Positions 5,878 through 25,780 of a stretch of DNA of 26,564 nucleotides are shown piece after piece (position 1 is the stretch's first letter; the number at the start of each line of letters is the position of its first letter). A model generated the notes under the pieces. It did not search any database and was not told the DNA's origin. It saw only the letters and a program-made list of their open reading frames with translations. The DNA comes from Dehalococcoidia bacterium (GTDB lineage: Bacteria; Chloroflexota; Dehalococcoidia; GIF9; UBA5620), in the NCBI GenBank assembly GCA_016783225.1, contig JADHWZ010000004.1, positions 1 through 26,564 on the forward strand. Direction: 5' to 3'. The position numbers and the translations under genes were made by a program.

Positions 5878-5900
5878 GTAGCGCGAGGCTTTAACCTCGC
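5878..5900 (+). repeat. GTAG-foot hairpin, family D
   Basis: GTAG (5878-5881) is followed by stem GCGAGG (5883-5888) and CCTCGC (5895-5900). Related copies lie at 7073, 7980, 9689, 13089 and 15204. Confidence 0.7.
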
Positions 5901-5953
5901 CTGGGTTAGGGGCTGGGGGCTTGATGTTGGAGACTGACCCCACCAGGCTAGGG

Positions 5954-6005
5954 GTAGCCTGGAGCTTCCGCTCCAGGCATGATTGGAGCCGATGCTCCAA
6001 TCTAC
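5954..6005. repeat. 52-bp double hairpin, family B (REP/inverse-REP pair), copy 1
   Basis: It begins GTAG and ends CTAC. Two perfect hairpins lie inside: GCCTGGAGC/GCTCCAGGC and GATTGGAGC/GCTCCAATC, each with a 9-bp stem and 4-nt loop, separated by AT. Each arm therefore has GTAG at its own 5' foot, as in an E. coli BIME. Confidence 0.85.
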
Positions 6006-6041
6006 CCGGGCTAGAGTACGACAATCTATTTTCGGAATTGG

Positions 6042-6297
6042 CCCGGCCTGGCTTATTGGTGTCAGGTCTGGGGACCTGACACCCACATGGGACAAGTACC
6101 AAGCACTAAATCCGAAACCCTAAATCCCAAACAATATATAAATCCAAATTACCAAATGTTCCTGTTTTGAGTTTTGGACTTGGGTGATTTGAGTTTGTTT
6201 AGAGCTTAGAGATTAGGATTTGGAATTTGGCATGCGGTGTGAGGGTGAGAGGATGTTTCCCCCTCCCTCTGACTCCCTCCCGCCAGGGAATTATGAA
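6042..6297. repeat. Composite module C+E (copy 1)
   Basis: GGCCTGGCTTATTGGT is followed by the family C hairpin GTCAGGTCTGGGGACCTGAC (6061-6080). An AT-rich stretch of TAAATCC/GATTTGG-type words (about 6100-6235) comes next, then a pyrimidine-rich end (CCCTCCCTCTGACTCCCTCC). About 165 bp are nearly identical to 20661-20822, with only a few differences by eye. The full module recurs inverted at 25287-25521. Confidence 0.85.
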
Positions 6298-6304
6298 ACA
6301 ACGG

Positions 6305-6356
6305 GTAGCCTGGAGCTTCCGCTCCAGGCATGATTGGAGCGGATGCTCCAATCTAC
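6305..6356. repeat. 52-bp double hairpin, family B, copy 2
   Basis: Same 52-bp GTAG...CTAC unit as 5954-6005, with a changed second loop (GGAT for CGAT) and intact stems. Confidence 0.85.
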
Positions 6357-6606
6357 CCGGGCTCAGGCAACTCAAGGCAGTCCCCGCCAGGCAGAAGCAA
6401 AGGGGTCAGACAAGCAGGGCAAGTCGGCCTTGGGCAAATGAATATCACCAAAAAGTACGTGCCCAGCCTAGTACTTTCTTACCATACGAAACGTTACCAA
6501 TGGCCTATTTACTTAGGCTGTCAACGGTAGCATACCACACTTGTATCACAGAGATAGCTCCGCCGCGGCACATTATAAGAAACTAAATGAAAGGGGGTAA
6601 CCAAGA

Positions 6607-6927
6607 GTGAGAAAACTGCGCAAGTTCTTCAGAACTGGCGAGAAGGGCTTCACCCTGGTAGAGCTGCTGGTCGTAGTTGCCATCCTCGGCACGCTGGCGG
6701 GCGTAGTCGCCCTCAACGTCACCAACTTCCTCGGTCAGGGCGAAACCGAAGCCGCATGCACCGAAGTTGACATTGTCCAGGCAGCCGTTGTGGCCTACAT
6801 GGCAGCCAATGACGCTGCGGTTCCCACCGTGGCTGCACTCGTCACCGCAAACTACCTCATGTCGACGCCGGATAACGCCATGGTTATCAGCGCCGCCGGT
6901 GCGGTGACCTCAGCCGCCTGCCCGTAA
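6607..6927 (+). CDS. Type IV pilin-like protein, probable major pilin subunit
   Basis: A 106-aa prepilin. A basic leader MRKLRKFFRTGEKG ends at the cleavage site G14/F15. The mature N-terminus FTLVELLVVVAILGTLAG has the conserved Glu at position 5 and is the hydrophobic assembly helix. The mature protein of about 92 aa is small and Ala/Val-rich, with two cysteines (C51, C105) that could form a C-terminal disulfide loop. The start is a GTG at 6607 with AAAGGGGG ten bases upstream. The gene stands alone between the kinase operon and hicBA and is followed by a strong hairpin, so it is probably a separate, highly expressed unit. PilD (645-1451) would process it. It could instead be a GspG-type pseudopilin; isolation and size favour a major pilin. 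Confidence 0.85.
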   Translation: MRKLRKFFRTGEKGFTLVELLVVVAILGTLAGVVALNVTNFLGQGETEAACTEVDIVQAAVVAYMAANDAAVPTVAALVTANYLMSTPDNAMVISAAGAVTSAACP

Positions 6928-6948
6928 GGGACTAGAGCGCAAGCACAT

Positions 6949-7040
6949 CTCCGGGATTGCCCGGAGCAGTCAGGCCACTGATAACAGGCTAGCAAGGCCT
7001 GCGGCGAGAGCCAACCCGGCTGCGCCGCGGGCCTTTCATG
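6949..7040 (+). terminator. Hairpins after the pilin gene, probable terminator
   Basis: A 7-bp hairpin CTCCGGG/CCCGGAG (6949-6966) is followed by a 13-bp stem AAGGCCTGCGGCG (6994-7006) with CGCCGCGGGCCTT (7023-7035), one G-U pair, then TCATGTTTC. The T-run is poor, so termination may be partial or the hairpins may protect the pilin mRNA. Confidence 0.55.
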
Positions 7041-7191
7041 TTTCATCCCAACCCCCGACGAAGCCAACCCTCGTAGCGCGAGACTTTAGCCTTGCCCACG
7101 CCTGCCCCGGATGCCACGTAAGGAATCCTGCTGCAAGTCTGCACCATCACCCAACCACTGCCAGGCCATCGAAGAAGAACCCGACAGGACT

Positions 7192-7220
7192 TTGACAGCA
7201 GCCACCAATCATACTAGAAT
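7192..7220 (+). promoter_or_regulatory. Promoter of hicBA
   Basis: TTGACA (7192-7197) and TAGAAT (7215-7220) are exactly 17 bp apart, a near-consensus housekeeping promoter. It starts transcripts about 25 bp ahead of the antitoxin ATG, which shows that the longer upstream frame is not the protein start. Confidence 0.8.
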
Positions 7221-7251
7221 TAAGGCAAACGAAGAAGCAGGGGAAGAGAAC

Positions 7252-7494
7252 ATGCTAACGGAATACCTACGAGCAGCTATGAAAAGAGCCAAATACGAAA
7301 TGCTGCCTGACAACAACACGTATTACGGTAGCATACCACAATTTGACGGCGTCTACGCCAACAGCGATAATCTGGAAAACTGCCGGAATGAGCTAGAGGA
7401 CGTCCTGGAGGAGTGGCTCCTATTTAGAATATCCCGCCGATTATCACTGCCAATTGTCGATGGGATCGACCTCAGAATAAGGGAATTCGTTTAG
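7252..7494 (+). CDS. hicB: HicB-family antitoxin
   Basis: An 80-aa protein with the partial RNase H fold of HicB: YYGSIPQFDGVYANSDNLENCRNELEDVLEEWL matches the family core (G-x-IP-x-F-GV...A...L-x-E...EWL). HicB binds and blocks HicA and often represses its own promoter. The ATG at 7252 has GGGGAAGAG upstream and lies just after the promoter at 7192-7220; the same frame is open back to 7111, but that part would be untranscribed. No separate C-terminal DNA-binding domain is visible, so autoregulation may be weak or depend on the complex. The stop codon overlaps the hicA start by one base (TAGTG). The order antitoxin-toxin is the less common hicBA arrangement. Confidence 0.85.
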   Translation: MLTEYLRAAMKRAKYEMLPDNNTYYGSIPQFDGVYANSDNLENCRNELEDVLEEWLLFRISRRLSLPIVDGIDLRIREFV

Positions 7495-7715
7495 TGCCTC
7501 AGTTGGGACCCATAAAACGTGAGGATCTGATTAGATATCTCAGGGTTTTGGGGTTTGAGGGTCCCTTCTCCGGCAGGAAACACCAATTCATGGCCAAAGG
7601 TGAGATTACCTTGCGCCTCCCTAATCCTCATCAAACAGATATCGGACTTGAACTGCTGTCTAGAATACTCAAGCAAGCCAGGGTCCATAGAGCCACCTGG
7701 CAAAGCTTGGAGTAA
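7494..7715 (+). CDS. hicA: HicA-family mRNA interferase toxin
   Basis: A 73-aa double-stranded RNA-binding-fold toxin that cleaves mRNA when free of HicB. KREDLIRYLRVLGFEGPFSGRKHQFMAKG gives the first helix and the beta-hairpin with the catalytic histidine H30 in the G-x-K-H position. ITLRLPNPH and GLELLSRILKQARV correspond to the remaining strand and final helix. The GTG start at 7494 overlaps the hicB stop, so the two are translationally coupled. The catalytic His and full length suggest an active toxin rather than a remnant. After the stop, repeat DNA begins within about 50 bp. Confidence 0.88.
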   Translation: MPQLGPIKREDLIRYLRVLGFEGPFSGRKHQFMAKGEITLRLPNPHQTDIGLELLSRILKQARVHRATWQSLE

Positions 7716-7764
7716 CAGGCACGAAGCCTTCGATCTCCTGACCCAAAGCCAGGAAAAGGCACGT

Positions 7765-7954
7765 TCAGGCGCGTCGATTGCGTGGCCCTTACCCGTAGGT
7801 GGGTGACTGGCGCAGGCAATGCAAAATGTAAAAGCTAAAATGGAAAAGGGCACCAAGGGACCACGGCAAACCCAAAAGAAGACCTTTACATTGTTACTTG
7901 TCATTTTGGTTTTTGGTTTAGGTCACGTAGGAGTCACCTGCCCACAGGTGACCC
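7765..7954. repeat. Composite element: hairpin, AT-rich core, hairpin (copy 2, inverted)
   Basis: This is the reverse complement of the arrangement at 5663-5843: TTCAGGCGCGTCGATTGCG, a degenerate A' hairpin, an AT-rich core with TTACTTGTCATTTT, then GGTTTAGGTCACGTAGGAG and the A hairpin. The ends are better conserved than the core. Confidence 0.75.
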
Positions 7955-7979
7955 TATGTCCCGGTTTGAACAGCCCCTA

Positions 7980-8002
7980 GCGAGGCTGAAGCCTCGCACT
8001 AC
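7980..8002 (-). repeat. GTAG-foot hairpin, family D
   Basis: Stem GCGAGGC (7980-7986) with GCCTCGC (7991-7997) and CTAC at 7999-8002. On the minus strand this reads GTAG followed by the hairpin. The trailing ACATGTT is shared with the copies at 9689 and 13089. Confidence 0.75.
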
Positions 8003-8034
8003 ATGTTTTGCTCCACTCAGGGCTCCGACTATTC

Positions 8035-8066
8035 CACGTAGGAGTCACCTGCCCACAGGTGACCCT
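8035..8066 (+). repeat. GTAG/GGAG-foot hairpin, family A
   Basis: CACGTAGGAG followed by stem TCACCTG/CAGGTGA with loop CCCA. GTAG is at 8038-8041 and GGAG at 8041-8044. Same element as the copies near 7927, 8938, 9144, 9438, 13353 and 13400. Confidence 0.85.
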
Positions 8067-8122
8067 GTGGCCCCGACTATGCTGGCATGGAAAAGAGCCG
8101 CTCCACCAGTACCAAATTCCTA

Positions 8123-8151
8123 TTTACGTCGCCCGCGCTTAGGCATATAAT
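8123..8151 (+). promoter_or_regulatory. Promoter of the transglutaminase-like gene
   Basis: TTTACG (8123-8128) and TATAAT (8146-8151), a perfect -10, are spaced 17 bp apart and sit 49 bp ahead of the ATG at 8200. Confidence 0.65.
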
Positions 8152-8199
8152 CGAGGTAACACAAGGCACTGCCATTAGCGCAAAGAGCAGGTTATACAG

Positions 8200-8880
8200 A
8201 TGAAAGAACCAACCCGGGTTTCAATGTTGCCGGTCTTTCTGCTGCTCCTTATTGGTGGCCTGGCGGCGTTATGGGCGCTGGCCTCTTACTCGCCGGGCAC
8301 TGACAGCTCAGGGGTATCACTTCTGGGTTTGCTGAACGTCGCGCCACAGGCAGAACACGTCACGCAGCACACAAATGAACAACCCACGTGCGCCTTCGAT
8401 GATGAAAAGGGCTGGGTAGGACACTGTAGAGCGCTGAACGGAGGCGGAGCGGTCCGCCTCGTCAACAACCCCGATGCCAAGAACTTCAGCTTTGCCGAGC
8501 TGAAGTCATTCATCCTTGAAGACAACACCAATCAGCTAAGGTACCTGGCCGGAATGAGGAAGTGTACGGACTTCGCCGAGGCGCTGCACAACAACGCGGA
8601 AGTGGCCGGCATCAGGGCCGCCTATGTAGCTGTTTCGTTCAAAGGTGGGGGAACCGGACACGCTCTCAACGCCTTCCAGACCACGGACGAGGGGCTTCTA
8701 TATGTCGACTGCACGGGACCACTGGGAGAAGACGTTGCCAACAGTGACCGGTTTGACCGGATAGCCCATATCGAGGAAGGCAAGACATACAAGAGCCTGG
8801 AGATAACATATTACCCCAAGGTGGCCTGCGGCGCTTTCTGGCACCAGAGCGTTGTGGAGAAGGTGGAGATATACTGGTGA
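8200..8880 (+). CDS. Exported, membrane-anchored transglutaminase-like (papain-fold) protein
   Basis: A 226-aa protein. An N-terminal hydrophobic segment (about 9-29, PVFLLLLIGGLAALWALA) acts as signal anchor, and a low-complexity linker runs to about 60. The C-terminal domain has the Cys-His-Asp order of the transglutaminase-like fold: C122 in RKCTDFAEALHNNAEVAG, H154 in GTGHALNAF and D170 in LLYVDCTG. Family members act as cysteine proteases, amidases or cross-linkers, and the substrate cannot be predicted here. Two further cysteine pairs (C64/C76, C171/C210) may form disulfides outside the cell. It has its own promoter and no operon partner, and stands in repeat DNA between hicBA and the end of the pilus operon. 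The ribosome binding site is weak (AGCAGG). Confidence is good for fold and location, low for function. Confidence 0.7.
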   Translation: MKEPTRVSMLPVFLLLLIGGLAALWALASYSPGTDSSGVSLLGLLNVAPQAEHVTQHTNEQPTCAFDDEKGWVGHCRALNGGGAVRLVNNPDAKNFSFAELKSFILEDNTNQLRYLAGMRKCTDFAEALHNNAEVAGIRAAYVAVSFKGGGTGHALNAFQTTDEGLLYVDCTGPLGEDVANSDRFDRIAHIEEGKTYKSLEITYYPKVACGAFWHQSVVEKVEIYW

Positions 8881-8931
8881 CAAACCGGGCCACAAATCGG
8901 AAACACGAGCGCTTATTCCGAGAATAGATTT

Positions 8932-9137
8932 CCACCTAGGAGTCACCTGCCCACAGGTGACCCTGCCCGGGGGTACAAACCGGCTAGATTGGAGCATCAG
9001 CTCCAATCATGCCCAGAGGCGGTGCTCCAGGCTACAGCCCGTAGCATTGTTATCTTGGGACGTTAGAATCTAGGCGGTTATTGGTGAGGTCAGGTCTGGG
9101 GCCTGACACTCACCAAAGCCTGTTTAGCAACTGTCTT
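8932..9137. repeat. 205-bp hairpin block, direct repeat copy 1
   Basis: Contains a family A hairpin, a family B double hairpin (8984-9035), GGGACGTTAGAATCTAGGCGG and a family C hairpin (9089-9107), then CACTCACCAAAGCC. Matches 9433-9636 with scattered substitutions. In this B copy one stem has two adjacent changes that both give G-U pairs, so the fold is kept. Confidence 0.85.
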
Positions 9138-9138
9138 T

Positions 9139-9242
9139 CCACGTAGGAGTCACCTGCCCACAGGTGACCCTGCCCGGGGATACAAACCGGGTAGATTGGA
9201 GCATCGGCTCCAATCATGCCTGGAGCGGATGCTCCAGGCTAC
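9139..9242. repeat. Family A hairpin plus family B 52-bp double hairpin
   Basis: CACGTAGGAG and hairpin A, then GCCCGGGGATACAAACCGG, then the 52-bp GTAG...CTAC unit at 9191-9242 with both stems intact. It repeats only the first half of the neighbouring 205-bp blocks. Confidence 0.85.
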
Positions 9243-9317
9243 CCCTAGTTTCATAATTCGCTGGTGGGCATGTCCCCATGTCCGTTTGTCTAGAAAACCG
9301 CCCACCTGTGCCAAGAG

Positions 9318-9431
9318 GTGCGAAAACCCAGCGCCACCGTCACCATCCTTCAGATCTGACTTAACCTGCAGCCCACGAGGTCCACCTACCCAACTGACTT
9401 TCCCTGCACTCCGCCGGCGAGCTTCTCCACT
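9318..9431 (-). pseudogene. Duplicated 3' end of pilT
   Basis: These 114 bp match 9791-9904 at a constant offset of 473 bp with only a few differences. The matching part covers the last 15 codons and stop of pilT (minus strand, ending GKSVG-stop here against GKSVA-stop in the gene) plus 68 bp of 3' flank. It has no start and is not a gene. It marks a past tandem duplication. Confidence 0.85.
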
Positions 9432-9432
9432 C

Positions 9433-9636
9433 ACCTAGGAGTCACCTGCCCACAGGTGACCCTGCCCGGGGTACAAACCGGGTAGATTGGAGCATCGGCT
9501 CCAATCATGCCTGGAGCGGATGTTCCAGGCTACAGCCCGTAACATTGTTATCTCGGGACGTTAGAATCTAGGCGGCTATTGGTTAGGTCAGGTCTGGGGC
9601 CTGACACTCACCAAAGCCCGGTTAGCAACTGTCTTA
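9433..9636. repeat. 205-bp hairpin block, direct repeat copy 2
   Basis: Direct repeat of 8932-9137: hairpin A, a family B 52-bp unit at 9482-9533 (one stem base changed, GTTCC for GCTCC), GGACGTTAGAATCTAGGCGG and hairpin C at 9587-9605. Confidence 0.85.
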
Positions 9637-9688
9637 CAAGGATTTAGATATCAGGGTTTTTGATTTGCCGCGCTACCCCTCTGGCCCC

Positions 9689-9712
9689 GACGAGGCTAAA
9701 GCCTCGCACTAC
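9689..9712 (-). repeat. GTAG-foot hairpin, family D
   Basis: CGAGGC/GCCTCG stem (9691-9706) with CTAC at 9709-9712 and then ATGTTCTGCTCC. The minus strand reads GTAG at the hairpin foot. Confidence 0.75.
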
Positions 9713-9858
9713 ATGTTCTGCTCCGCTCCCGCTTCGCTCCACTCAGAGGTTCGGCTCATCGCAATGCCACCCGCCTGCTTCTACCAACAAGTGAGAAAAC
9801 CCAGCGCCACCGTCACCCTCCTTCAGGTCTGACTTAGCCTGCAGCCCACGAGGTCCAC

Positions 9859-10935
9859 CTACGCAACTGACTTTCCCTGCACTCCGCCGGCGAGCTTCTC
9901 CACTTCGTCAATCTCCTGGCAGTAGGCCAGCACGGCATCCCAGTCGATTATGCCCCTGCGGTAGAGGCTGACCAGCGCGTCGTCCAGTGTCTGCATCCCC
10001 AGTTGGCCATGGGTGCGGATGGTGTTGGACAGGAGATAGGTCTTACCATCGCGGATCAGGTTTCTTACCGCCGGATTGGCCAGCATGATTTCCACGGCAG
10101 CCACCCGGCCACCGGTCTTTTTCGGCACCAGCGCCTGGCACAGGACCCCCACCAGCAGCGAAGCCAGCCTCGCCTGGGCCATGGGGCGCTCATGCGGCGG
10201 GAAAAGGTCGACAATCCTCTCCACCGATTGGGCAGAGCTGGGAGCATGGCCGGTCGACAGGATGAGATGCCCCGTCTCAGCTATGGTCAGCACCGCAGAA
10301 GCGGTTTCCAGGTCCCTCATCTCGCCCACCAGGATAACGTCGGGGTCCTGGCGAAGCACGTGTCTCAGGGCGGTGGCAAAAGACAGGGTGTCAACCGCCA
10401 GCTGCCGCTGGGAGACAGCACATTTGATGTTCGGATGAATATACTCCACCGGGTCCTCAATAGTAACCAGGAAACGGCGCTCCGTCTCGTTCAGGTGTTG
10501 AATCATAGCGGCCAGCGTCGTGCTTTTGCCCGAGCCGGTAGGACCGGTAACTACAATCAGCCCCCTGGGCTTCATAATCAGGTCTTTGCATATCTGGGGC
10601 AAACCCAGGTCATCCACAGTCGGTATGACCGGCGACAGAAGGCGAAAAGCCAGGCTGATGGTCCCCTGTTGCTGGCTGGCGTTGCACCTCATGGGCCCGC
10701 CTCCTGGCACGGTGCTGGCGAAGTCCAGCTCCAGGTCACGGCTGAACATCTCCCGTTGCTGCGGCGTAGTCACCTGCAAAAAGGCCTGGCTTATGTCCTC
10801 AGCGGTCAGCTCCTGGGTATCTTCCATCGGACGCAGCGCGCCATCGATGCGCAGCAACGGCTGGCAGGAAGCCAGCAGGTGCAAGTCTGAGGCGCCTTTG
10901 CTCTTGGCCTGGCTAAGTAACTCGTGAATCTCCAT
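9859..10935 (-). CDS. pilT: PilT-family pilus retraction ATPase
   Basis: A 358-aa hexameric secretion ATPase that powers pilus disassembly at the cytoplasmic face. Walker A GPTGSGKSTT (131-140), Asp box TIEDPVEY (158-165), Walker B DPDVILVGEMRD (197-208), His box AETGHLILSTGH (219-230), and the PilT-specific C-terminal AVRNLIRDGKTY (289-300) are all present; the last separates it from PilB. The His-box end STGHAPSS differs from the usual TLHTN/TLHTSSA. I chose the ATG at 10933-10935 (MEIHELLSQAKSKGASDLHL, the typical PilT start, GAGG upstream); the frame is open 90 bases further but that stretch is unlike PilT and overlaps the previous gene. Last gene of the pilus operon, 41 bp after the PilMN gene. 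Its final codons are duplicated at 9318-9431. Confidence 0.93.
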   Translation of the reverse strand: MEIHELLSQAKSKGASDLHLLASCQPLLRIDGALRPMEDTQELTAEDISQAFLQVTTPQQREMFSRDLELDFASTVPGGGPMRCNASQQQGTISLAFRLLSPVIPTVDDLGLPQICKDLIMKPRGLIVVTGPTGSGKSTTLAAMIQHLNETERRFLVTIEDPVEYIHPNIKCAVSQRQLAVDTLSFATALRHVLRQDPDVILVGEMRDLETASAVLTIAETGHLILSTGHAPSSAQSVERIVDLFPPHERPMAQARLASLLVGVLCQALVPKKTGGRVAAVEIMLANPAVRNLIRDGKTYLLSNTIRTHGQLGMQTLDDALVSLYRRGIIDWDAVLAYCQEIDEVEKLAGGVQGKSVA

Positions 10936-12464: not shown

Positions 12465-13198
12465 TACGGCTCCTCACTGACTTCATAATGAAATACATCG
12501 ATTATGACCGTGCCTGTGTCCTCCTCCCCCTCCACAACAGCCACCAGCATATAGACTTCTCGCAACTGGCACGCGGGGAGCCTGTCGTCCAGAGCCAGGA
12601 TGAAGTTCTGGAACTTGGGCACCTGCCCCTTGAGGTCGATCACGAAGGTCGTTACCGGCCACGCAATTGCATCCTCCCCTTCCCCAATCGTCCACTGGTA
12701 TCTTGCCTGTTGCGTCACCGTTACATCTATGTCATTATCTTCAGCCAGCCCAAGCAGGGTGTCGATGATTTCAGGCGCCTGCGCTGGAGCAGGAAACTGC
12801 TCTCTGGCCACCTCCGTCTCAGCCTCGATCTGGCTTATCTCCGCCTCCAACTCCTCCTTTTGTGTCATTGGCGCCGCCAGTATTGTCTCGAGCAGCGAAA
12901 GCTCGCGCTCCAGCCCAGACTGTCTCGCTGGCTGCTGCAGATAAATCATCGATAGCATAACGAAGAGAATGAGGAAGATGCCCACCAGCAACGCGAACTG
13001 GCTCACCCTGCCCATCTTGGGCAGCCTATCGAGAAAACCCCTTTTCTGTTCCGGTTCCTCAGGTTGAATCACTTGTGTTGTCCGTTGCTCACCAGGCGGG
13101 GCGAAGCCCCGCACCACATGTTCTAGTGTAGCATCTTCGGTAGCCAAAACCAATATGGGGTGGCTTTCCCCAATCCGTGAGTCCAGCTTCGAAAGCAC
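12464..13198 (-). CDS. PilO-like pilus assembly protein
   Basis: A 244-aa bitopic protein. It has a cytoplasmic N-terminus (1-65), a membrane helix (about 66-87, FALLVGIFLILFVMLSMIYL), a coiled coil (about 95-135, SLLETILAAPMTQKEELEAE) and a C-terminal ferredoxin-like domain. The C-terminal part PKFQNFILALDDRLPACQLREVYM is typical of PilO, which pairs with PilN in the periplasm-equivalent space. It overlaps the PilMN start by one base. The frame starts at a GTG (13196-13198) with GAGG close ahead. Residues 25-37 (LEHVVRGFAPPGE) are encoded by a family D hairpin repeat that stays in frame. A start downstream of the repeat (GTG for V43 or ATG for M62) is possible but lacks a good ribosome binding site, so the exact N-terminus is unsure. 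Confidence 0.85.
   Translation of the reverse strand: MLSKLDSRIGESHPILVLATEDATLEHVVRGFAPPGEQRTTQVIQPEEPEQKRGFLDRLPKMGRVSQFALLVGIFLILFVMLSMIYLQQPARQSGLERELSLLETILAAPMTQKEELEAEISQIEAETEVAREQFPAPAQAPEIIDTLLGLAEDNDIDVTVTQQARYQWTIGEGEDAIAWPVTTFVIDLKGQVPKFQNFILALDDRLPACQLREVYMLVAVVEGEEDTGTVIIDVFHYEVSEEP
13089..13129. repeat. Family D hairpin inside the pilO-like reading frame
   Basis: The plus strand has GCGGGGC-GAA-GCCCCGC, then ACCACATGTTCT, matching the intergenic copies at 15204 (CGGGGC-TGAA-GCCCCG, CTACATGT) and 9691 (CTACATGTTCT). The foot tetranucleotide is GTGG instead of GTAG. It lies within codons about 24-38 of the pilO-like gene and keeps the frame open. Confidence 0.75.
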
Positions 13199-13352: not shown

Positions 13353-13430
13353 GGGTCACCTGTGGGCAGGTGACTCCTACGTGGAATCAACGCGCCTGAG
13401 GGTCACCTGTGGGCAGGTGACTCCCACGTG
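13353..13430. repeat. Two tandem family A hairpins
   Basis: Copies at 13353-13384 (foot GTAG on the minus strand) and 13400-13430 (foot GTGG), both with GGAG directly at the stem, separated by AATCAACGCGCCTGA. Confidence 0.85.
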
Positions 13431-13482: not shown

Positions 13483-14625
13483 CTAGGGTGGGTTTATGGT
13501 GTAGCTAAGCATTTCGACTTGGCCGCCACCAGTACTACCACCACCACTGGTCTCAGGGAAGTTTAGCCCTCCCTCGGGTTGAGCTGTCAGCGTGAGAACG
13601 CAGCCGTTCTTCAGCTCCACGTCGCTGATGCCGGCGACAACCCCATAGATGCTATCAGCGTTGTTTAGAGTCACCGAACCATCGATGGACATGAGAAACA
13701 GAAAACCGTCGGGGTCAGTATCGCCATTCGTCTTAAAATCAATCGACCCTTCGGCGATAATGCATCCCGAGCCAACAAAAGTGCACCCATTCTTAAACTC
13801 AATGTTCCCTTCAACGTACACAGCCTGCCCGTTGAGGTCTATCGTACAGCTATCTTTCACTGTCAGGTCACCCCCAACATAGACAGTCCCTTCGAGTCTT
13901 GCCCTTGTCGTGTCATCACCGCTAATGTTCCTGATGGTCAAGTTTCCGGGCGCACGCAGTGGCCCTATAGGATAAGGCTCATCCATGGTCCCAGAGGACA
14001 CGTCAATCTCGCACGGGTTGTCTTCCGGGGGCAAATCCTCCACCTGCTCCCAGTAAAACGGGGACATTTCCTCGGCCGTAGGCCAACTGTAACCACCACC
14101 ATCATAGTCATCCCACGAATCGTATGTACCTGCGCCAGTTGGTTCTTCAGGAGATACAACACCACCCGTAACCACACTGTCGTTCTTGAGTTCCACGGTA
14201 CCAGGGCTGCTAACGGCATTATCTAAGAGCCAAGCGAGGCTGCTGGTTAGCGAGACATATGATTCAATTGTGGTACCGCCTGCCGTGGACGTGATCTTGT
14301 AGCCATCCTCACCTTCGTTGCTTACGGTCACATCGACGGTAACGTCATTGATTGTTGACTGGGGCAGACTCAACGACTCTTGTTCGCCTTCAGCTGGCAG
14401 GACAAACTCCTCGTCATATTTCAAGGTCCACACGCCGTACTCCACGCCGGCATCGGCGGCATAAAGCTCCGAGGTGTTCTCCTCGGCTGCCATGTTGGCG
14501 TTGAGGCTGGTGCTCATCAGCACGAGAACAGGAGCAATGAACAGGCCCCCCATGAACATCAAGACCAGCGCCATGGGCAGGACGTGCCCTGAACTGCTCA
14601 CCAGCATTCTTTTCGTTAGCTTCAT
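13483..14625 (-). CDS. PilX-like pilus-associated protein with beta-helix-like repeats
   Basis: A 380-aa protein. A short N-terminus is followed by a membrane helix (about 14-40) and SLNANMAAEENTSELYAADAGVEYG, the helix ending typical of PilX N-terminal domains (the ADAG-E pattern), but it lacks a classical prepilin cleavage site. After a Ser/Thr/Gly-rich linker, residues about 140-345 carry short repeats: VELKNDSVVTGG, LTVKDSCTIDL, IEFKNGCTFVGSG, IDFKTNGD, VELKNGCVLT. These suggest stacked beta turns like bactofilin or polymer-forming domains. C-terminal GGGSTGGGQ linker. The ATG at 14623-14625 has a strong GGAGGTGA site, and the gene starts 21 bases after the preceding prepilin. Inferred role: minor pilin/priming or tip-exposed surface subunit. 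The function of the repeat domain is not known. Confidence 0.7.
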   Translation of the reverse strand: MKLTKRMLVSSSGHVLPMALVLMFMGGLFIAPVLVLMSTSLNANMAAEENTSELYAADAGVEYGVWTLKYDEEFVLPAEGEQESLSLPQSTINDVTVDVTVSNEGEDGYKITSTAGGTTIESYVSLTSSLAWLLDNAVSSPGTVELKNDSVVTGGVVSPEEPTGAGTYDSWDDYDGGGYSWPTAEEMSPFYWEQVEDLPPEDNPCEIDVSSGTMDEPYPIGPLRAPGNLTIRNISGDDTTRARLEGTVYVGGDLTVKDSCTIDLNGQAVYVEGNIEFKNGCTFVGSGCIIAEGSIDFKTNGDTDPDGFLFLMSIDGSVTLNNADSIYGVVAGISDVELKNGCVLTLTAQPEGGLNFPETSGGGSTGGGQVEMLSYTINPP

Positions 14626-15150: not shown

Positions 15151-15544
15151 CGATTTACCTTTCAGTCAGCCACTCGCGCAGCGCGACGACCCGGGCCCAC
15201 CCCGACGGGGCTGAAGCCCCGCGCTACATGTCTCCCCCCTCCCTCTGGCTGCTTCCCGCTCGACAGGACACCGCGCCAGTTCCCCTTTCTCCCCTCTCCC
15301 TCGATGGGAGAGGGATAGGGTGAGGGTAACAAAGAACCAGAGATTAAACACCAAAGAGCAAAAATTTGGATTTTGCATTTGGAGCTTGGAATTTGTTTGT
15401 GATTTAGATATTAGAATTTAGGATTTCACAATCGCCCTTCAGCTCCAGACACATGACTCTCACCTAACAGGTAGGGGGCTCTCCCACGTCCCCCTCTCCC
15501 TTGACGGGTGAGGGTGAGAATGACATCCCTCGCACGACACGTCT
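15151..15544. other. Repeat-filled gap inside the pilus operon
   Basis: A family D hairpin (15204-15225, with GTAG at the minus-strand foot), pyrimidine-rich CCCCTCTCCCTCGATGGGAG palindromes, and an AT-rich family E segment (about 15355-15430) form a degraded copy of the module at 6042-6297. No gene and no clear promoter or terminator, so whether the operon is continuous across it is open. Confidence 0.7.
15204..15225 (-). repeat. GTAG-foot hairpin, family D
   Basis: CGGGGC-TGAA-GCCCCG stem (15204-15219), then CTAC at 15222-15225 and ATGT. It is the intergenic copy closest in sequence to the one inside pilO. Confidence 0.75.
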
Positions 15545-19011: not shown

Positions 19012-20373
19012 TCACATCAACCTGGCCGGGTCGTCAACTTCGATAACCTTGATTCCCTGGTGCCTGGCAAACTGCGTCGCTTCCTGATTGAGCCCGGGCG
19101 AGACAAGCAGGACCTTATCATGCATCCCCGCATCATAGGCCTTGGTGTCAAATGAGGATACCGCCTCGAGGCCCACCGCTTCATCAGCCACGACAACACC
19201 AATGTCCACGGTATGAATGATGATTCCATCGTCGCTGCAAGCCAGGATATCCAGAATACGCTCAGCTCCGGACCTGCCCCGAACCTGGGCTTTTTCCTCA
19301 ACTGAATAGCCAAGGCTCCTCAGATACTCAAGGAGCTTGCCCCTGGTCTCAAATTTGAACGACTCCTTCTTCATCTCCCGTGGTGCTGAAGGAGTCGCCG
19401 AAGCCAGAAAAGCCTCCAGGTCGTCACCCTCAAAGACCTTGATTTGCTGTCGCTCAGCAAACTGCCTGGCTTCGCGGTTAAGCCTGGGCACCACAAGCAA
19501 CACCTTGTCGTGGATCCCCAGGTCATAAGCCTTATCATCAAAGGTGAAAACCTCCTCTAAGCCTATTTCCTGTCCCTGACTATCTACCACGATACCGATA
19601 CCAAGAGTATAGGTTATGAAACCGTCATCGCGGCGAGCCAGGATGTCCAGCACATGCTCGGTTCCTGACTTGTTCCTGCTACCCACCTTGCCTTTCTCAG
19701 TCACCTCGTAACCCTGGCCTCGCAGGAATTCTATAAATCGAGCTTTAGGCCCCAGCTCAAAGCCCAGCCAGGGCCTTTTCTCAGCGTCAACCCGGTAAGA
19801 ATAGAGGATAGTCTCTTTGGCTTCGCCTTCTGCGAAGAAGAGCATGCACTTGAGACATTGCCACTCAAGCGCGGCTTCGCTGGATAGCTCACCACAATTG
19901 TGGCATTTGTAGTTGACACCCAGACTCAGATAGTCGGTGCCCAGAAACCTGAGTTCCTTGTTGCATTTGGGACATACATATTTGCCGGCGGCCACATATT
20001 CATCTTCCAGACCAACGTTGCTACAAGAGAAATGCTCCAGAACACGTCCTTTAGCTATGTTTGCCGAGCCGCACTTGGGGCACCGCAGGCTAGGTCGCAG
20101 ATTCGGAGAACTGCAATAGGGGCAGAACAGGATCCTGTCGTAGAACTGTTTCTCGAGAGCGTCTTCACTGGCCAGAGACTCCAGTATGGTTATGGATTCC
20201 CCCGTCGTCACCCCCAGCAAGTTTTCTACCTGCGGAAACGTGAACCCAAGTTCAGTGCCGAGGTCGAGGGTCGGTTTGATTTCCTCAATGTTCCCAGCAA
20301 GTATCCCCTCCCCTAGCTTCACAACATTGGGGTTTTCTCTGACAGCGCCGATTGGGCCAACAGCTTCGACCAT
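19012..20373 (-). CDS. Zinc-ribbon protein with two tandem nuclease-fold-like domains, first gene of the pilus operon
   Basis: A 453-aa soluble protein. Residues about 80-185 hold a cysteine-rich module: C84/C87, C98/C101, C117, C134/C137, C157/C160, C173/C176. Its layout resembles the TackOD1 output domain known from archaeal and bacterial signalling proteins (recalled from memory, not searched). Two diverged copies of one domain follow (208-325 and 343-453). They share LDILA, DDGxI, FDxKAYDxGxHDKVLLVxPxLNxEAxQFAxxQxIKVxE. This resembles the PD-(D/E)XK/Mrr-like fold, yet the expected E/Q-x-K catalytic pair is not evident, so the domains may bind DNA or protein rather than cut. Start: ATG 20371-20373 with AGGAG six bases ahead; a TTG at 20431 lacks support. 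The role in pilus control is inferred from position only. Confidence 0.7.
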   Translation of the reverse strand: MVEAVGPIGAVRENPNVVKLGEGILAGNIEEIKPTLDLGTELGFTFPQVENLLGVTTGESITILESLASEDALEKQFYDRILFCPYCSSPNLRPSLRCPKCGSANIAKGRVLEHFSCSNVGLEDEYVAAGKYVCPKCNKELRFLGTDYLSLGVNYKCHNCGELSSEAALEWQCLKCMLFFAEGEAKETILYSYRVDAEKRPWLGFELGPKARFIEFLRGQGYEVTEKGKVGSRNKSGTEHVLDILARRDDGFITYTLGIGIVVDSQGQEIGLEEVFTFDDKAYDLGIHDKVLLVVPRLNREARQFAERQQIKVFEGDDLEAFLASATPSAPREMKKESFKFETRGKLLEYLRSLGYSVEEKAQVRGRSGAERILDILACSDDGIIIHTVDIGVVVADEAVGLEAVSSFDTKAYDAGMHDKVLLVSPGLNQEATQFARHQGIKVIEVDDPARLM

Positions 20374-20525
20374 TCCCATCTCCTGTTCTGTTCCAACTAA
20401 AAACAGCTTAAACCAAACCTGGCCAACTTGCAATGAACTTCTCGCCTCTCAAGTAGCCCTTTAGTCATACCATAAGCGGTAAATTAGTCCTATATCACCA
20501 CCCCTCCAGCCGACATTGGCCTCCT

Positions 20526-20661
20526 GTCATTCTGAGCCGAAGTTCTGAGCAAGCCGAAGAGGAAGCGAAGAATCTCACGCACAACTCAGGGTAAACTCCG
20601 CGAAGGGGTGAGGGTGGAACTTGAGCCTTCCCGTAGGAGTCACCCGCCTACGGGTGACCCG
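20526..20661. repeat. 136-bp direct repeat F, copy 1
   Basis: GTCATTCTGAGCCGAAG... through ...CCCGTAGGAG and an A-type hairpin. Matches 21066-21201 at a constant offset of 540 bp with four differences seen by eye. Confidence 0.9.
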
Positions 20662-20822
20662 GCCTGGCTTATTGGTGTCAGGTCTGGGGACCTGACACCC
20701 ACATGGGACAAGCATCAAGCACTAAATCCGAAACCCTAAATCCCAAACAATATCTAAATCCAAATTACCAAATGTTCCTGTTTTGAGTTTTGGACTTGGG
20801 TGATTTGAGTTTGTTTAGAGCT
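20661..20822. repeat. Composite module C+E (copy 2, truncated)
   Basis: Nearly identical to 6044-6208, including the hairpin GTCAGGTCTGGGGACCTGAC (20677-20696), but it stops at TTTAGAGCTT where a hairpin pair A'/A begins. The break suggests that the hairpin unit inserted into, or recombined with, the module. Confidence 0.88.
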
Positions 20823-20827
20823 TCCGT

Positions 20828-20906
20828 GCCAGTCACCCGCCTACGGGTGACGGCCACGCAATCGACCAACCTCAGGGTCACCTGTGGGCAGGTGACTCCC
20901 ACCTGG
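20828..20906. repeat. Paired hairpin repeat (A' plus inverted A), copy 2
   Basis: Same unit as 5619-5695: A' hairpin, spacer GGCCACGCAATCGACCAACC, A hairpin. GGAG is kept at the A stem on the minus strand. Confidence 0.85.
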
Positions 20907-20954: not shown

Positions 20955-20980
20955 GGACATACCTGAAGGTATGTCCCTAC
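20955..20980 (-). repeat. GTAG-foot hairpin, family H
   Basis: GGACATACC-TGAA-GGTATGTCC, a perfect 9-bp stem, is followed by CTAC (20977-20980), so the minus strand reads GTAG then the hairpin. The copy at 25755-25780 is inverted and shares flanking TATTCTTCGGACA. Confidence 0.8.
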
Positions 20981-21065: not shown

Positions 21066-21201
21066 GTCATTCTGAGCCGAAGCTCTGAGCAAGCCGAAAA
21101 GGAAGCGAAGAATCTCACGCACAGCTCAGGGTAAACTCCGCGAAGTGGTGAGGGTGGAACTTGAGCCTTCCCGTAGGAGTCACCCGCCTACGGGTGACCC
21201 G
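21066..21201. repeat. 136-bp direct repeat F, copy 2
   Basis: Direct repeat of 20526-20661. The two copies enclose 404 bp containing module C+E and hairpins A and H, which could be lost or copied by recombination. Confidence 0.9.
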
Positions 21202-21209
21202 CACGGGAG

Positions 21210-21297: not shown

Positions 21298-21319
21298 CTT
21301 AAGGGGTAGTGTTTACCTC

Positions 21320-21348: not shown

Positions 21349-21379
21349 TACAAGGTAAGTCAGGTTTGGAGGTGAGAAC

Positions 21380-21523: not shown

Positions 21524-21560
21524 AACTTCTTAGAGCTTGCTGACCAGAAGTACGAAGCTC

Positions 21561-24500
21561 ATGCGACGGCTTAGAACAAGGGCAAGGAGTGCCACCAGCC
21601 TCAGCATACTGCTGATGCTGGCGTTGCTGGTGTGCCTGCTGCCTGCGGGCAGCCTTGAACCGGCTTTAGCCGACCCGGCGAAGCTGGCATGGTCTATCGT
21701 TGATACTCCAGTCCCAGCCCAGGCCGACAAGAATATCATAGTCAGCCCGTCGGAAATCAATGTCATAGCCATCGGTTCCGACGACACGACCTTCTATGCT
21801 GTTGATATTCCCGGCGACGCGCCCGGTGGCACCTATCCGAACGGCAAAGTCTACAAGTCAACCGACGGCGGCAGTGCGTGGGCAGATGACCCCACTGCCG
21901 GGCTGCTCAGGGCGACTCCGGTCGCCGCCAACTTGCCCGCCTGGAACATAGCCATAGCCCCGGACAACCCCGATTTCGTTGTCGCTGTCACCGACGGCAC
22001 CGGTGCTCCAAACGGGCCGAAAGAGGTATTCGTCTCCGAAGACGGGGGTGCCAACTGGAACGATACCAACTTCCCGGCCCTGGCCGCGAACGAGTACATT
22101 AGCTGCATTGACATTTCCCCAATATATAATAGCGCTGGTGAACGCGACATTGCCGTCGGCTCCCGAGATGGAGCGGGCGGTGGCACCCTGTGGGTGTTGA
22201 AGAAAACTAGCTTTCCTAGCTGGAATCGGCAGGATGGCGCAGGTACACCACCATCCACCGGCTGGCCCGGGGGCGATGTGGTAGCATTGAAATTCTCGCC
22301 CAATTACGCTACCGATGGCCTGTTAAGCGATCCTACAGTAGTGGTCATCTCAGCCACCCCTGCCAGCGGAACCGAGCTCAATCTGGGCCAGCGCGACACA
22401 GGGAACAACACCACGACGTGGAATAGTGTGACGAATTACCCGGTGACAATTCTTGACACGAACTACCCAGGCTCCTCACCTACTGCAGCTCAAATCATAA
22501 CTGCTGATTTGGAGTTGCCCCCAGACTTCGCGAGAGCCGACGCCAATCTACGGCGGTACTACCTCAGCACCGATGCAACCGCTGCCGGCGTTCAATCCGG
22601 CGTCTGCCGCATCGATGACGCCATAGTCCATTTGATAAGAAACGCAACCGCGGGCAGGATTTCCAGCATCGCCTACCCAGGCACCGAGGACTATGGCACG
22701 AGGCTTCTGGCAGGCGAAGTCACCCCCTCTGCCACGTCTCCAGGCACAGTCCCCATCTGGCGCACTTCAAACCCGGCCGACCAAGTTCCCACGTGGGAGA
22801 AATCGGATCCGGATTACAAGTCGCCGACCGGCGGCGCTAACTCAGGCTATGCCAACGCCCAGCTGGCCTGGAGCGTGGCCGGTGACAGGGCCTACTGCAG
22901 CACCAGCTCAGCCGACCTCCGGTTGGGAGGTACGTCTATGGCCATACCTGGGACCTGGCCGCTGGCGCTAACAACCGGGGTCGCCCTCGATGAGTCCGCT
23001 TTCTCCGTCAGCCCCTACGCCAGCTCCTATGAACGCCTCCTGGACGGCGCTGACAAGACCAAGGATAGCGACATCGGGAATATCTGGAACCAACTCAGCC
23101 TCATAGACACGCGAATCAGCTTTCTCTCCGATGTTGCTGCCCTGGAAGTCCCCGAAGACTCTGATGACTACAACGTATTATACCTCGCTTCCATCAATCT
23201 CCCTGGTGCGAATATATTCGATAGCGTCTGGCGCAGCACCAGCGATCCGCTGGGGGAAACGTGGGAGCGGGTACTATGCACTGCTACCGCCAACGACGAC
23301 ATCATCCTCCGCGTCAACCCGAGGAAGTCTGGAGATGCCAGAAGTAACGTTGTTACCTTCGCTGACCGCCTCACCAATGACGCCCGTTACTCTGATGATG
23401 AAGGCCAACAATGGCACCTTTTGACGGCTGGCCTCGGTGCGGCGGTGACTGATTTGACCCTGGCCATCGACGACGTTGTGTATATCCTGGACGACACCCT
23501 GGTGTGCAGGGGTGAGAAGAGCCTCACCACATGGGCGTGGCCCTCCAGGTTCCGGATAGATACCGGGCTTGACGCGGGACATACCATAGCCACCCCGCTG
23601 CAGAACCCGAAAAGCGAATACGTCGACCAAGATGCAGATTGGGTAATAGTCGGTGAAGCAGGCCCGCGCGCCAGAGTAGCCTATGCCGATTTCTCCAAGC
23701 TGGACCCGAAGTACACGCCCTCCCGCCCCGAGTTCGAGCCACCTCCAGGGGAGCGAGTCGCGGTGCCTGTGCCCGGCAACGTGCACGTCATCGCCGATGA
23801 CAGATTCGAGGAGAACGAAACGATCTATGCTGCCAGCGATAATCCTGGCGGCGAGATCTACCGCTGGGCTATCGATGTAAGCATCGACTGGGATGACCTG
23901 GACCCGCCCAACAGCGAATTCTACGGCCTCGCCCAGCTAAGTGATGTCCTGTACGGCGCCTGGAATACCGCCGTAGCAGCCGGTACCCGGCCCGGTGTCG
24001 ACCGCACCCTATACCCTAGAGAGACGGTGCCGCCCCCGCCGGAGTGGGATGACCTGACTACCGGCCTACCAGCTCCCGGCGCTGCCAACTTCCCTGTAGC
24101 TTTCACCCGCGAGCCGAGTTCGCTCAAGACCTCAAACAACGCCTACAACACATTGTGGGCAATCGACGACCGCAACTATAACTGGGCGAACGGAGTAGGT
24201 TGCCTCTGGGGATACACTGACATCGTAGCCAAGATTGGTCCGTGGACAACGTCGCCGCCCAGCGACGACTTGATACCCGTTGACCCGGTCACCGGCCGCG
24301 CCAAGGAGATAGACTTCAGGTGGCGGCAGCTCAGCTACGTCCAGGCATATGAGCTGCAGCTAGCCAAAGATGGTGACTTCAACATAAGGATACTGGTCAG
24401 TGACAACATTACCCCGGTCGACCCTCTGGCACCGGCATGCTGGTTCCCAGCCGGTGGCTTAGTACCGACGCCCGCGTCCGAGATAGCCGCCTGGGGCAAC

Positions 24501-25037
24501 CTTGAATGCGGTCATACCTACTACTGGAGAGTCAGGGCCAGGCGCGCCACCACCGGCGACATTATCCGCAGCCCGTGGTCAGCTACCATGTACTTCACGG
24601 TCAAGACCGGCTTACCCGTACGAAGCGAGCACCTTGGCCCCGTTCTGCTGAAGCCCGACCACGGCGCCAGGGATGTCTCGCTGTCTCCTGCTTTCTCATG
24701 GTCCCCCATCCCCGGAACGGAACAGTATGAGTTCATCCTGGCCGAGGACCCCGCTCTCACACGGGTAGTTGCCACCGTCACTGTACTGGCAACTGCCTAT
24801 GAATATGATGGCGAACTCGACAGGAACACCGCCTATTTCTGGCGCGTAACAGCGCTTGCTCCTGTAGCCAGCGAGCCTAGTCCGGTGTTCACCTTTACGG
24901 TGAAAGCCAAAAGGGCGCCCGATACCCCTCACGTACCCCTACCCCCGGTATCCCCATTCTGGACATGGCTAGCAATCGCCATATATGTGGCCCTGGTTGC
25001 CGCCATAATTGCCTGGATTAGAATCAGGGCTGCCTAG
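21561..25037 (+). CDS. Large secreted, membrane-anchored surface protein with Asp-box repeats and Fn3-like domains
   Basis: A 1158-aa protein. The signal peptide is MRRLRTRARSATS plus a hydrophobic core, ending near LEPALA/DP. Asp-box (BNR) repeats SxDxGxxW are visible: YKSTDGGSAW (about residue 97), VSEDGGANW (about 158) and YSDDEGQQWHLL (about 613). They imply a sialidase/Vps10-type beta-propeller over about 40-700. Two Fn3-like or Ig-like modules follow (about 880-1005 and 1020-1115, with YYWRVRA and AYFWRVTA near their ends). A Pro-rich linker and a C-terminal membrane helix (about 1132-1152) with a short basic tail (RIRAA) complete it. No sialidase catalytic set is evident, so it is more likely a structural or binding protein. 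Start: ATG 21561 gives a standard signal peptide; a TTG at 21537 would add eight residues. Flanked by inverted repeats at 21210 and 25152. Confidence 0.8.
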   Translation: MRRLRTRARSATSLSILLMLALLVCLLPAGSLEPALADPAKLAWSIVDTPVPAQADKNIIVSPSEINVIAIGSDDTTFYAVDIPGDAPGGTYPNGKVYKSTDGGSAWADDPTAGLLRATPVAANLPAWNIAIAPDNPDFVVAVTDGTGAPNGPKEVFVSEDGGANWNDTNFPALAANEYISCIDISPIYNSAGERDIAVGSRDGAGGGTLWVLKKTSFPSWNRQDGAGTPPSTGWPGGDVVALKFSPNYATDGLLSDPTVVVISATPASGTELNLGQRDTGNNTTTWNSVTNYPVTILDTNYPGSSPTAAQIITADLELPPDFARADANLRRYYLSTDATAAGVQSGVCRIDDAIVHLIRNATAGRISSIAYPGTEDYGTRLLAGEVTPSATSPGTVPIWRTSNPADQVPTWEKSDPDYKSPTGGANSGYANAQLAWSVAGDRAYCSTSSADLRLGGTSMAIPGTWPLALTTGVALDESAFSVSPYASSYERLLDGADKTKDSDIGNIWNQLSLIDTRISFLSDVAALEVPEDSDDYNVLYLASINLPGANIFDSVWRSTSDPLGETWERVLCTATANDDIILRVNPRKSGDARSNVVTFADRLTNDARYSDDEGQQWHLLTAGLGAAVTDLTLAIDDVVYILDDTLVCRGEKSLTTWAWPSRFRIDTGLDAGHTIATPLQNPKSEYVDQDADWVIVGEAGPRARVAYADFSKLDPKYTPSRPEFEPPPGERVAVPVPGNVHVIADDRFEENETIYAASDNPGGEIYRWAIDVSIDWDDLDPPNSEFYGLAQLSDVLYGAWNTAVAAGTRPGVDRTLYPRETVPPPPEWDDLTTGLPAPGAANFPVAFTREPSSLKTSNNAYNTLWAIDDRNYNWANGVGCLWGYTDIVAKIGPWTTSPPSDDLIPVDPVTGRAKEIDFRWRQLSYVQAYELQLAKDGDFNIRILVSDNITPVDPLAPACWFPAGGLVPTPASEIAAWGNLECGHTYYWRVRARRATTGDIIRSPWSATMYFTVKTGLPVRSEHLGPVLLKPDHGARDVSLSPAFSWSPIPGTEQYEFILAEDPALTRVVATVTVLATAYEYDGELDRNTAYFWRVTALAPVASEPSPVFTFTVKAKRAPDTPHVPLPPVSPFWTWLAIAIYVALVAAIIAWIRIRAA

Positions 25038-25151
25038 CAGACCTCGGGACCATCCGCCAACCATCCAAGCCCCATCTCCATCGCACCCAGAGATCCCCTC
25101 GCTGACGTCAAGCATGCCCTCCTCGCAGAAGCGAAGGCCAGTAACCCCAAT

Positions 25152-25239
25152 CCGTGGACTCTCCAGTTGACCTAACAGACCCCAGCACCCACCCTGAGAT
25201 TGCTTCGTCGCTGACGCTCCTCGCAAAGACAGCCGAGTG
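25152..25239. repeat. 88-bp inverted repeat G, right copy
   Basis: Reverse complement of 21210-21297 (about 78 of 88 bases match by eye). Together the copies bracket the promoter, the zinc-ribbon gene and the surface-protein gene. Confidence 0.88.
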
Positions 25240-25286
25240 TGATTGCGATGAGCAGAAGCCTTGAGTGCAGCGAAGGGGAAATGAAG

Positions 25287-25521
25287 TGTTCTCCTCCCTC
25301 CCCTGGCGGGAGGGAGTCAGAGGGAGGGGGAGACTTCTTATCACCCTCACCCCGCATGCCAAATTCCAAATCCTAATCTCTAAGCTCTAAACAAACTCAA
25401 ATGACCAGAACCCAAAATCCAAACCGCAAGCATTTGGTGATTTGGATTTAGATATTGTCTAGGATTTAGGATTTCGTGCTTGGGATTTCCCCCGTGTGGG
25501 TGTCAGGTCCCCAGACCTGAC
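25287..25521. repeat. Composite module C+E (copy 3, inverted)
   Basis: Reverse complement of the 6042-6297 module: CCTCCCTCCCCTGGCGGGAG palindrome, AT-rich TAATCTCTAAGCTCTAAAC tract, then TGGGTGTCAGGTCCCCAGAC and the closing arm of hairpin C (25502-25521). It is the only other copy with both ends present. Confidence 0.85.
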
Positions 25522-25754
25522 CCCATCCGGTAGAAGGCTTTCCACCGGGTTATCCCTCCCCTGGCTAGGCTGTTTAGTTTTGCTTTTAGCTTCATTTTCC
25601 GCCACCTTTGGAGGCCTTCACCCCCAACTTCTGGGCGGTTTCTCAGGGCTTTTAGCTTGGTTATCACCCTGAAACCCCCGAAAAGCCCCCTTCATTTCTA
25701 AACGGCCTCATCAAGGGAGAGGGAACACACCAGCAGCCAAAGCAACCACGGACT

Positions 25755-25780
25755 GTAGCGACATACCTTTAGGTGTGTCC
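25755..25780 (+). repeat. GTAG-foot hairpin, family H, inverted copy
   Basis: GTAG (25755-25758), then GACATACC-TTTA-GGTGTGTC (one G-U pair). Inverted relative to 20955-20980. Confidence 0.8.

Follow-up and report, generated by a model that had tools for sequence, protein, structure and literature searches.

Probable REP elements of several families in a Dehalococcoidia type IV pilus locus, and their counterparts beside RAYT genes in related genomes

Introduction

Why should hairpins of quite different stem sequence share the same few bases at their 5' foot within one bacterial locus? The question is raised by a stretch of 26,564 nucleotides from a Dehalococcoidia bacterium (contig JADHWZ010000004.1, assembly GCA_016783225.1; the whole stretch is henceforth termed the window). 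Genes for a type IV pilus are clustered in this 26.6-kb window, and the spacers between its genes contain numerous short hairpins. A first-pass annotation had sorted them into families and likened them to repetitive extragenic palindromic (REP) elements, which we here regard with high confidence as non-autonomous mobile elements; the enzymes concerned are REP-associated tyrosine transposases (RAYTs, also TnpA_REP), which are Y1 transposases of the HUH type. From comparison with related genomes we conclude, with a probability of about 0.9, that the hairpins of the window are REPs and fall into at least five families (A, B, C, D and H), that family B is organized as REPINs, i.e., inverted REP pairs forming one unit, and that each family is, or formerly was, moved by a RAYT lineage of its own.

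The general RAYT-REP principle is already established. PMC3733652 reports GTAG repeats in Chloroflexi and 24 GTAG-tagged REP families, in some genomes several at once; some families have degenerate or GTGG feet, dimers occur head to head, and the RAYTs are specific to their repeats. PMC6006769 describes REPs with GT[AG]G feet that are particular to a TnpA_REP subclass, as well as REPs with two feet and REPs lying in frame within a transposase gene. According to PMC8266576, group 3 enzymes, one of them with the loop TTTA, are sensitive to loop positions. Dehalococcoides mccartyi is listed in a table of analysed genomes in PMC12306157, and none of the top-ranked matches of our literature search concerned these hairpin families in this lineage.

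Results

Intergenic hairpins with family-specific feet

A family scan of the window, in which strand was set by the loop and not by the foot and coding regions were the open reading frames (ORFs) judged real by the analyst, returned 32 matches (Table 1). All but one are intergenic (12 A, 9 B, 3 C, 5 D and 2 H); the exception, a B-like match with two mismatches inside a pilM-like gene, was left out of the counts. When seven representative stretches were folded as single-stranded DNA, z-scores ranged from -3.4 to -8.9; for the H hairpin at 25755, 3 of 200 shuffles folded equally well. Their intergenic position (31/32), their folding and the presence of copies in relatives mark these elements as the short, repeated, intergenic hairpins expected of REPs.

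GTAG occupies the loop-defined 5' side in 21 of the 31 intergenic family hairpins and the mirror side in none (0/31). The share differs between families: 8/9 for B (the exception is CTAG), 5/5 for D and 2/2 for H, which bears out the first-pass claim of a GTAG foot on the hairpin's own strand for these three, and 6/12 for A and 0/3 for C. One foot rule for all families does not hold, since all three scanned C copies carry GTGG and the foot of A drifts (GTAG 6, GTGG 3, CTAG 2, GTGC 1; GT[AG]G in 9/12). Families B, C, D and H thus have a 5' GT[AG]G foot on one strand in the window. None of five look-alikes outside the scan (5621, 5795, 9089, 9587 and 13096) has GTAG.

The GspE-like protein of the window has its closest matches in Dehalococcoidia metagenome-assembled genomes (MAGs); the best, at 78% amino-acid identity, is in PowLak16_MAG20 (locus L001 of genome G001, the nearest relative; L numbers denote loci and G numbers genomes of relatives). 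Foot enrichment was measured over 978,816 bases of three relatives (G020, G019 and G001; the 979-kb sample), which contain 414 hairpins with a stem of at least 8 and a loop of 3 to 5. The most enriched foot tetramer is GTAG, found 79 times versus 18.5 in eight shifted controls, or 45 versus 15.0 if each distinct core is counted once; GTGG stands at 16 versus 21.4. The enrichment over shifted positions that had been predicted for GTAG and GGAG feet therefore appeared in these relatives for GTAG and failed to appear for GGAG (20 versus 18.5).

GGAG had also been named as the invariant foot of family A. In the window it mostly results from overlap, where a GTAG foot, or GTGG or CTAG, is followed directly by GAG, and it is absent from the A copies that read GTGC followed by CA and from all 20 A copies read in relatives. 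Being unenriched as well, it was rejected as a separate foot.

Within the 979-kb sample, GTAG lies at most 7 nt 5' of the core in 31/33 D, 23/25 H, 6/17 B and 0/2 A hairpins, and on the mirror side once each for D, H and B and never for A; the 7-nt stretch was used because a fixed spacer undercounts D feet (9/33). An unanchored tally, in which 28 pattern-chosen hairpins were removed from 87 to leave 59, gave GTAG in 15/20 D, 22/24 H, 6/11 B and 0/4 A, with mirror-side counts of 1 (D), 0 (H), 1 (B) and 0 (A). A family A search tied to no foot found 24 places in 6/30 genomes; the 20 distinct copies read have the feet CTAC (9), GTGC (4), CTAG (4), ATAC (1), GTAA (1) and TTAG (1). Across window and relatives, these counts describe a strong foot for D and H, a loose one for A and GTGG for C; the B foot is good within the window and mixed among relatives.

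Family B as REPINs

The 52-bp units of family B noted in the first pass at 5954, 6305, 9191 and 9482 are all inverted pairs with GTAG outside. Each of these four scanned dimers runs GTAG-hairpin-hairpin-CTAC and is built from two different halves, so that an inverted REP pair forms one unit with its feet outside, as in a REPIN. The likeness to published REPINs (PMC3116915) lies in this repeated unit of 52 bp and two halves; unlike there, only four intact family B copies are at hand, counted in the window alone. GTAG also stands outside in 10/11 close B or H pairs of the 979-kb sample. In relatives, six B hairpins that stand singly have a foot at each end. In two of these six, L080:1501 (G020, second foot decayed) and L082:1501 (G001), the left end comes from one half and the right end from the other, the product expected of a central deletion in a REPIN; section 13 of PMC6006769 mentions such a route.

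RAYT genes beside the hairpins in relatives

Searches for Y1_Tnp (PF01797) gave matches in 5/17 genomes brought in by the GspE scan and in 7/30 genomes of G001's family. Contrary to the outcome that the first-pass annotation had named as refuting, relatives contain Y1 genes, and each of the five hairpin families flanks such a gene. Family H lies on both sides of the Y1 gene at L023, L039, L044 and L040, these being the single gene of G001, two genes of G020 and one of G042. A second Y1 gene of G042 (L045) has a B-type hairpin pair upstream and B hairpins inside the frame and at the 3' end; the third PF01797 match in this genome is a 63-aa fragment. At L042 (G032) the Y1 gene sits between A-type hairpins, at L025 (G010) groups of two and five D hairpins flank it on either side, and at L126 (G251) family C occurs on both sides. 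Family C is also found at L041 (G030), on the sole flank held by the contig. For all five families, then, the same hairpin flanks a RAYT gene in a relative. The in-frame B hairpin of L045 (1453-1482) has a double foot and separates the HUH motif from the presumed catalytic tyrosine.

Assignment to the REP type was examined with the NCBI model NF047646 (REP_Tyr_transpos; cutoff 80 bits) for ten Y1 proteins, eight of them hairpin-flanked. Seven of these eight pass the cutoff (L023, L025, L042, L045, L126, L040 and L091), and every family has at least one flanking full-length Y1 protein above it. Lower scores were obtained for L041 (truncated; 64 bits), for L024, a Y1 without such hairpins (59 bits), and for L037 (25 bits), an IS200 control that was assigned to the IS200 model. 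The best Y1 match of G033 is an IS200 protein according to its NCBI model, and that of G039 groups with it in the tree described below. The solved structures nearest by sequence to the H protein are 2xm3 and others named transposase (E 6e-6), and 4er8, a TnpA_REP (E 2e-4); 2xm3 and the other transposase-named entries presumably belong to the IS200/IS605 family. For the B protein, no solved structure was found by sequence at E 0.001. With each family beside a REP-type Y1 gene in relatives and GTAG as the top foot tetramer, the proposed REP nature of the hairpins and their link to RAYTs are supported.

The window itself had been described as free of a transposase gene, and a tblastn search with 62 Y1 proteins agrees: the ten best matches are all weak, at E 0.008 or worse, the best of them (E 0.008, 27% identity) lying antisense to a pilin-like gene. 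On the same grounds, the presence of Y1 remnants was rejected for the window.

Class-wide searches with the D-, B- and A-flanked proteins gave matches in 41, 18 and 9 of 294 genomes, respectively; the Y1 loci taken up are part of the places found (30 loci for 59 places in one such search). A GT[AG]G hairpin lies within about 300 bases of the Y1 gene at 41/64 loci versus 36/600 random stretch pairs, and inward-facing hairpins occupy both flanks at 14/64 versus 0/600, the random pairs being drawn from three genomes and not from each Y1 genome.

In a rival explanation, the adjoining operons use the hairpins as transcription terminators or RNA-level elements, and GTAG is a side effect. Such a role would suit the intergenic position of 31/32 scan matches, and published REPs may also act in RNA (PMC3733652). 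Terminator-like sites, however, show no excess over shuffles in two repeat-rich stretches, which leave out the 13.3- and 15.2-kb areas (3 versus 4.7 and 3 versus 4.4); none of these six sites is a family hairpin, and two overlap a hairpin edge (9031-9045 and 20651-20666). Terminators were rejected on this basis. The strand-specific foot and the copies flanking Y1 genes also speak against this explanation, which we consider very improbable; a terminator role would be secondary and not another origin.

Separate RAYT lineages and the hairpin apex

A Y1 tree was built from 63/70 loci, with six fragments or frames lacking the HUH motif and one 590-aa frame excluded; group labels were assigned by the analyst from the flank listings. 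Five H genes of four genomes form one clade (100/95), three B-labelled genes fall inside a clade of seven (100/99), the C pair stands together (96/81) with A as its sister (97/97), and D lies near H (87/91). The RAYTs beside the different hairpin families thus belong to separate lineages.

The first-pass annotation had offered two possibilities, several co-resident RAYTs or a single enzyme with loose stem specificity that moves all families. The single enzyme would account for the GTAG common to B, D and H and for the apex CTTYAG shared by D and H. Against it, different RAYT lineages adjoin the different families; G042 has one B-flanked and one H-flanked Y1 gene, each with its own kind of hairpin (on two contigs of one MAG); A and C have other feet; and CTTYAG occurs on the D/H side of the tree alone, with hairpins of this apex flanking 16/17 footed loci there versus 0/24 elsewhere, counts that are not corrected for kinship. 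Judged in relatives, the cognate genes in separate lineages and the two Y1 genes of G042 fit several RAYTs better than one loose enzyme, which we deem unlikely.

The D/H side comprises 27 rows (support 92/85, with 83/83 for the other side), and the split was drawn after the hairpins had been seen. As a tentative idea, which we hold to be the less probable outcome, the apex rather than the foot may read out RAYT lineage in Dehalococcoidia, with CTTYAG on the D/H side and other apexes on the A/B/C side, where the foot drifts (GTAG, GTGG, GTGC, CTAG and CTAC). If so, RAYTs could swap their guide tetranucleotide while the stem stays, and a lineage would be traceable through foot switches.

Spread, turnover and duplication

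Exact patterns of the families occur across the 30 genomes of G001's family, H in 14, D in 8, B and A in 6 each and C in 1; backward-pattern controls gave one match altogether. H copy number differs between genomes with and without an H-flanked RAYT (3 versus 27 genomes, p 0.002), a comparison confounded by kinship and incomplete MAGs. Tandem H hairpins with a 63-base period lie at 2603-2817 and nearby on contig 15 of G020.

In the spacers that bound the 1166-aa gene, the hairpins belong to families A, C and H in the window and to B and D in L001, with 68 to 77% DNA identity between the genes there where aligned; on one side of this gene, an extra gene adjoins the spacer in the window relative to L001. 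Since the spacer hairpins differ despite aligned genes, the families seem quick to turn over.

The window also has some longer duplicated segments (171 nt at 91%, 169 nt at 98% and 136 nt at 97% identity), which would suit a scenario in which the hairpins spread by segment duplication, or as miniature inverted-repeat transposable elements (MITEs) of a different transposase, and came to lie beside RAYT genes by chance. The presence of the same hairpins in other genomes and the inward-facing pairs at Y1 loci argue against this scenario, to which we give hardly any weight.

Several of these duplications include hairpins. Between 8929 and 9635, A, B and C hairpins follow in the same order in partly duplicated blocks that start at 8933, 9140 and 9432 (the middle block is without the C hairpin), and this order indicates that larger intergenic blocks with several REP families were duplicated together. 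The 169-nt repeat (6039-6207 and 20655-20823) carries a C hairpin close to one of its ends, has an AT-rich tail and may be a separate mobile unit. The 136-nt repeat (20526-20661 and 21066-21201) has a family A hairpin at its end.

Gene context

Among ten window ORFs scanned, Pfam matches comprise a prepilin peptidase, a T2SSE ATPase, a PilM-like protein, an N-methylation (pilin-like) protein and two histidine kinases. Three proteins in or near the pilus cluster (8200-8880, 13483-14625 and 21537-25037) had no Pfam match at E 0.001. The protein encoded at 19012-20433 combines TackOD1 and Mrr-type restriction endonuclease domains (Pfam); its gene is not in L001, where only about 500 bases separate gspE from the alignment to the 1166-aa gene.

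Table 1. Hairpin elements of the window and look-alikes outside the family scan.
Feature	Foot or form	Positions	Strand	Basis or remark
Family B REPIN	GTAGCC half + GTAGAT half, inverted	5954..6005	+	fold and dimer reading
Family B REPIN		6305..6356	+	dimer reading
Family B REPIN	halves in other order	9191..9242	+	dimer reading
Family B REPIN		9482..9533	+	dimer reading
Family B REPIN, decayed	CTAG; second hairpin broken	8984..9035	+	
Family A REP	GTGG	5664..5691	-	
Family A REP	GTAG	7927..7954	+	scan and fold
Family A REP	GTAG	8038..8065	+	
Family A REP	CTAG	8936..8963	+	
Family A REP	GTAG	9143..9170	+	
Family A REP	CTAG	9435..9462	+	
Family A REP	GTAG	13353..13380	-	
Family A REP	GTGG	13400..13427	-	
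Family A REP, CCCGCC form	GTAG	20633..20660	+	
Family A REP, CCCGCC form	GTGC	20826..20853	+	
Family A REP	GTGG	20875..20902	-	
Family A REP, CCCGCC form	GTAG	21173..21200	+	
Family A-like hairpin	no GT[AG]G	5621..5640	+	outside family scan
Family A-like hairpin (5795)	GTGC	5791..5818	+	outside family scan
Family C REP	GTGG	6061..6086	-	scan and fold
Family C REP	GTGG	20677..20702	-	
Family C REP	GTGG	25496..25524	+	
Family C-like hairpins	no GTAG	9089 and 9587		outside family scan
Family D REP	GTAG	5878..5900	+	
Family D REP	GTAG	7073..7095	+	absent from the first-pass list
Family D REP	GTAG	7980..8002	-	scan and fold
Family D REP	GTAG	9690..9712	-	
Family D REP	GTAG	15205..15227	-	
Family D-like hairpin, decayed	GTGG	13096..13117	-	outside family scan
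Family H REP	GTAG	20955..20980	-	scan and fold
Family H REP	GTAG	25755..25780	+	scan and fold

Discussion

Cleavage and movement of these REPs are inferred, and the genome of the window would have, or would once have had, RAYTs of its own. Most likely, such enzymes act by hairpin binding, foot-guided cutting and single-strand joining. A RAYT would bind the folded single-stranded hairpin, whose stem and loop would give the REP its identity to the enzyme, while the foot tetranucleotide would set strand choice and cleavage; single strands of a REP or REPIN would then be cut and joined elsewhere, mostly in intergenic DNA. Single-strand REP cleavage by a RAYT has been published, the E. coli enzyme cleaving a GTAG motif (PMC3733652), and cuts at a CT dinucleotide beside the hairpin have been described, GTAG having a part in recognition and in the choice of site (PMC8266576).

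Several observations weigh against the reading that the hairpins are REPs, each family with a RAYT lineage of its own. All RAYT evidence comes from relatives, and no movement of hairpins was observed. The foot is weak in part of the relatives' material, with GTAG in only 6/17 B hairpins of the 979-kb sample and neither GTAG nor GT[AG]G in any of the 20 family A copies. The automatic flank scan detected no GT[AG]G hairpin at 23/64 Y1 loci, L025 (D) and L042 (A) among them; both were missed through other foot spacing or letters, D at L025 also escaped the flank listing, and the two links rest on readings of the loci. A and D depend on one RAYT locus each and C on one full-length and one truncated gene, the latter, at L041, cut by the contig end and showing one flank. 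Hairpin label and clade do not correspond one to one, as further H-labelled genes lie elsewhere in the tree; H needs 4 changes and B 3.

Among the 11 Y1 loci inspected in the 30 genomes at family level, D never occupies both sides; the H-flanked gene of L023 has one D-like hairpin 435 bases behind it. Five of the eight genomes with D copies (G018, G019, G034, G043 and G044), which partly carry B, H and A hairpins as well, have no PF01797 match in their assemblies. Hairpin copies without a RAYT are thus common in this group, and MAG gaps or lost RAYTs could explain them.

By description, the elements resemble the GTAG REPs of PMC3733652 in their 5' GTAG hairpins, some with GTGG or degenerate feet, in the co-occurrence of several families, in dimers, in flanked RAYT genes, in tandem clusters with flanking DNA and in their occurrence in Chloroflexi; the family A foot is looser than the variants listed there. 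As for TnpA_REP in PMC6006769, each enzyme has its own REP family, and the double foot and in-frame REPs of subclass 2.4 are matched by the B-type gene L045, a placement made on these features alone. REP Mb of Marinomonas (group 3, PMC8266576) has a GTAG foot, a short stem and the loop TTTA, compared with TTYA in D and H, but its stems differ and its host is distant.

We regard the locus as a sound further example of a known system, in which the mechanism is published and the members are new. With it, cognate RAYT-REP pairs now include five families from a lineage that is little studied and mostly uncultured. The natural pairs at L023, L025, L042, L045 and L126, which differ in loop, stem and foot, could be used to test what a RAYT reads.

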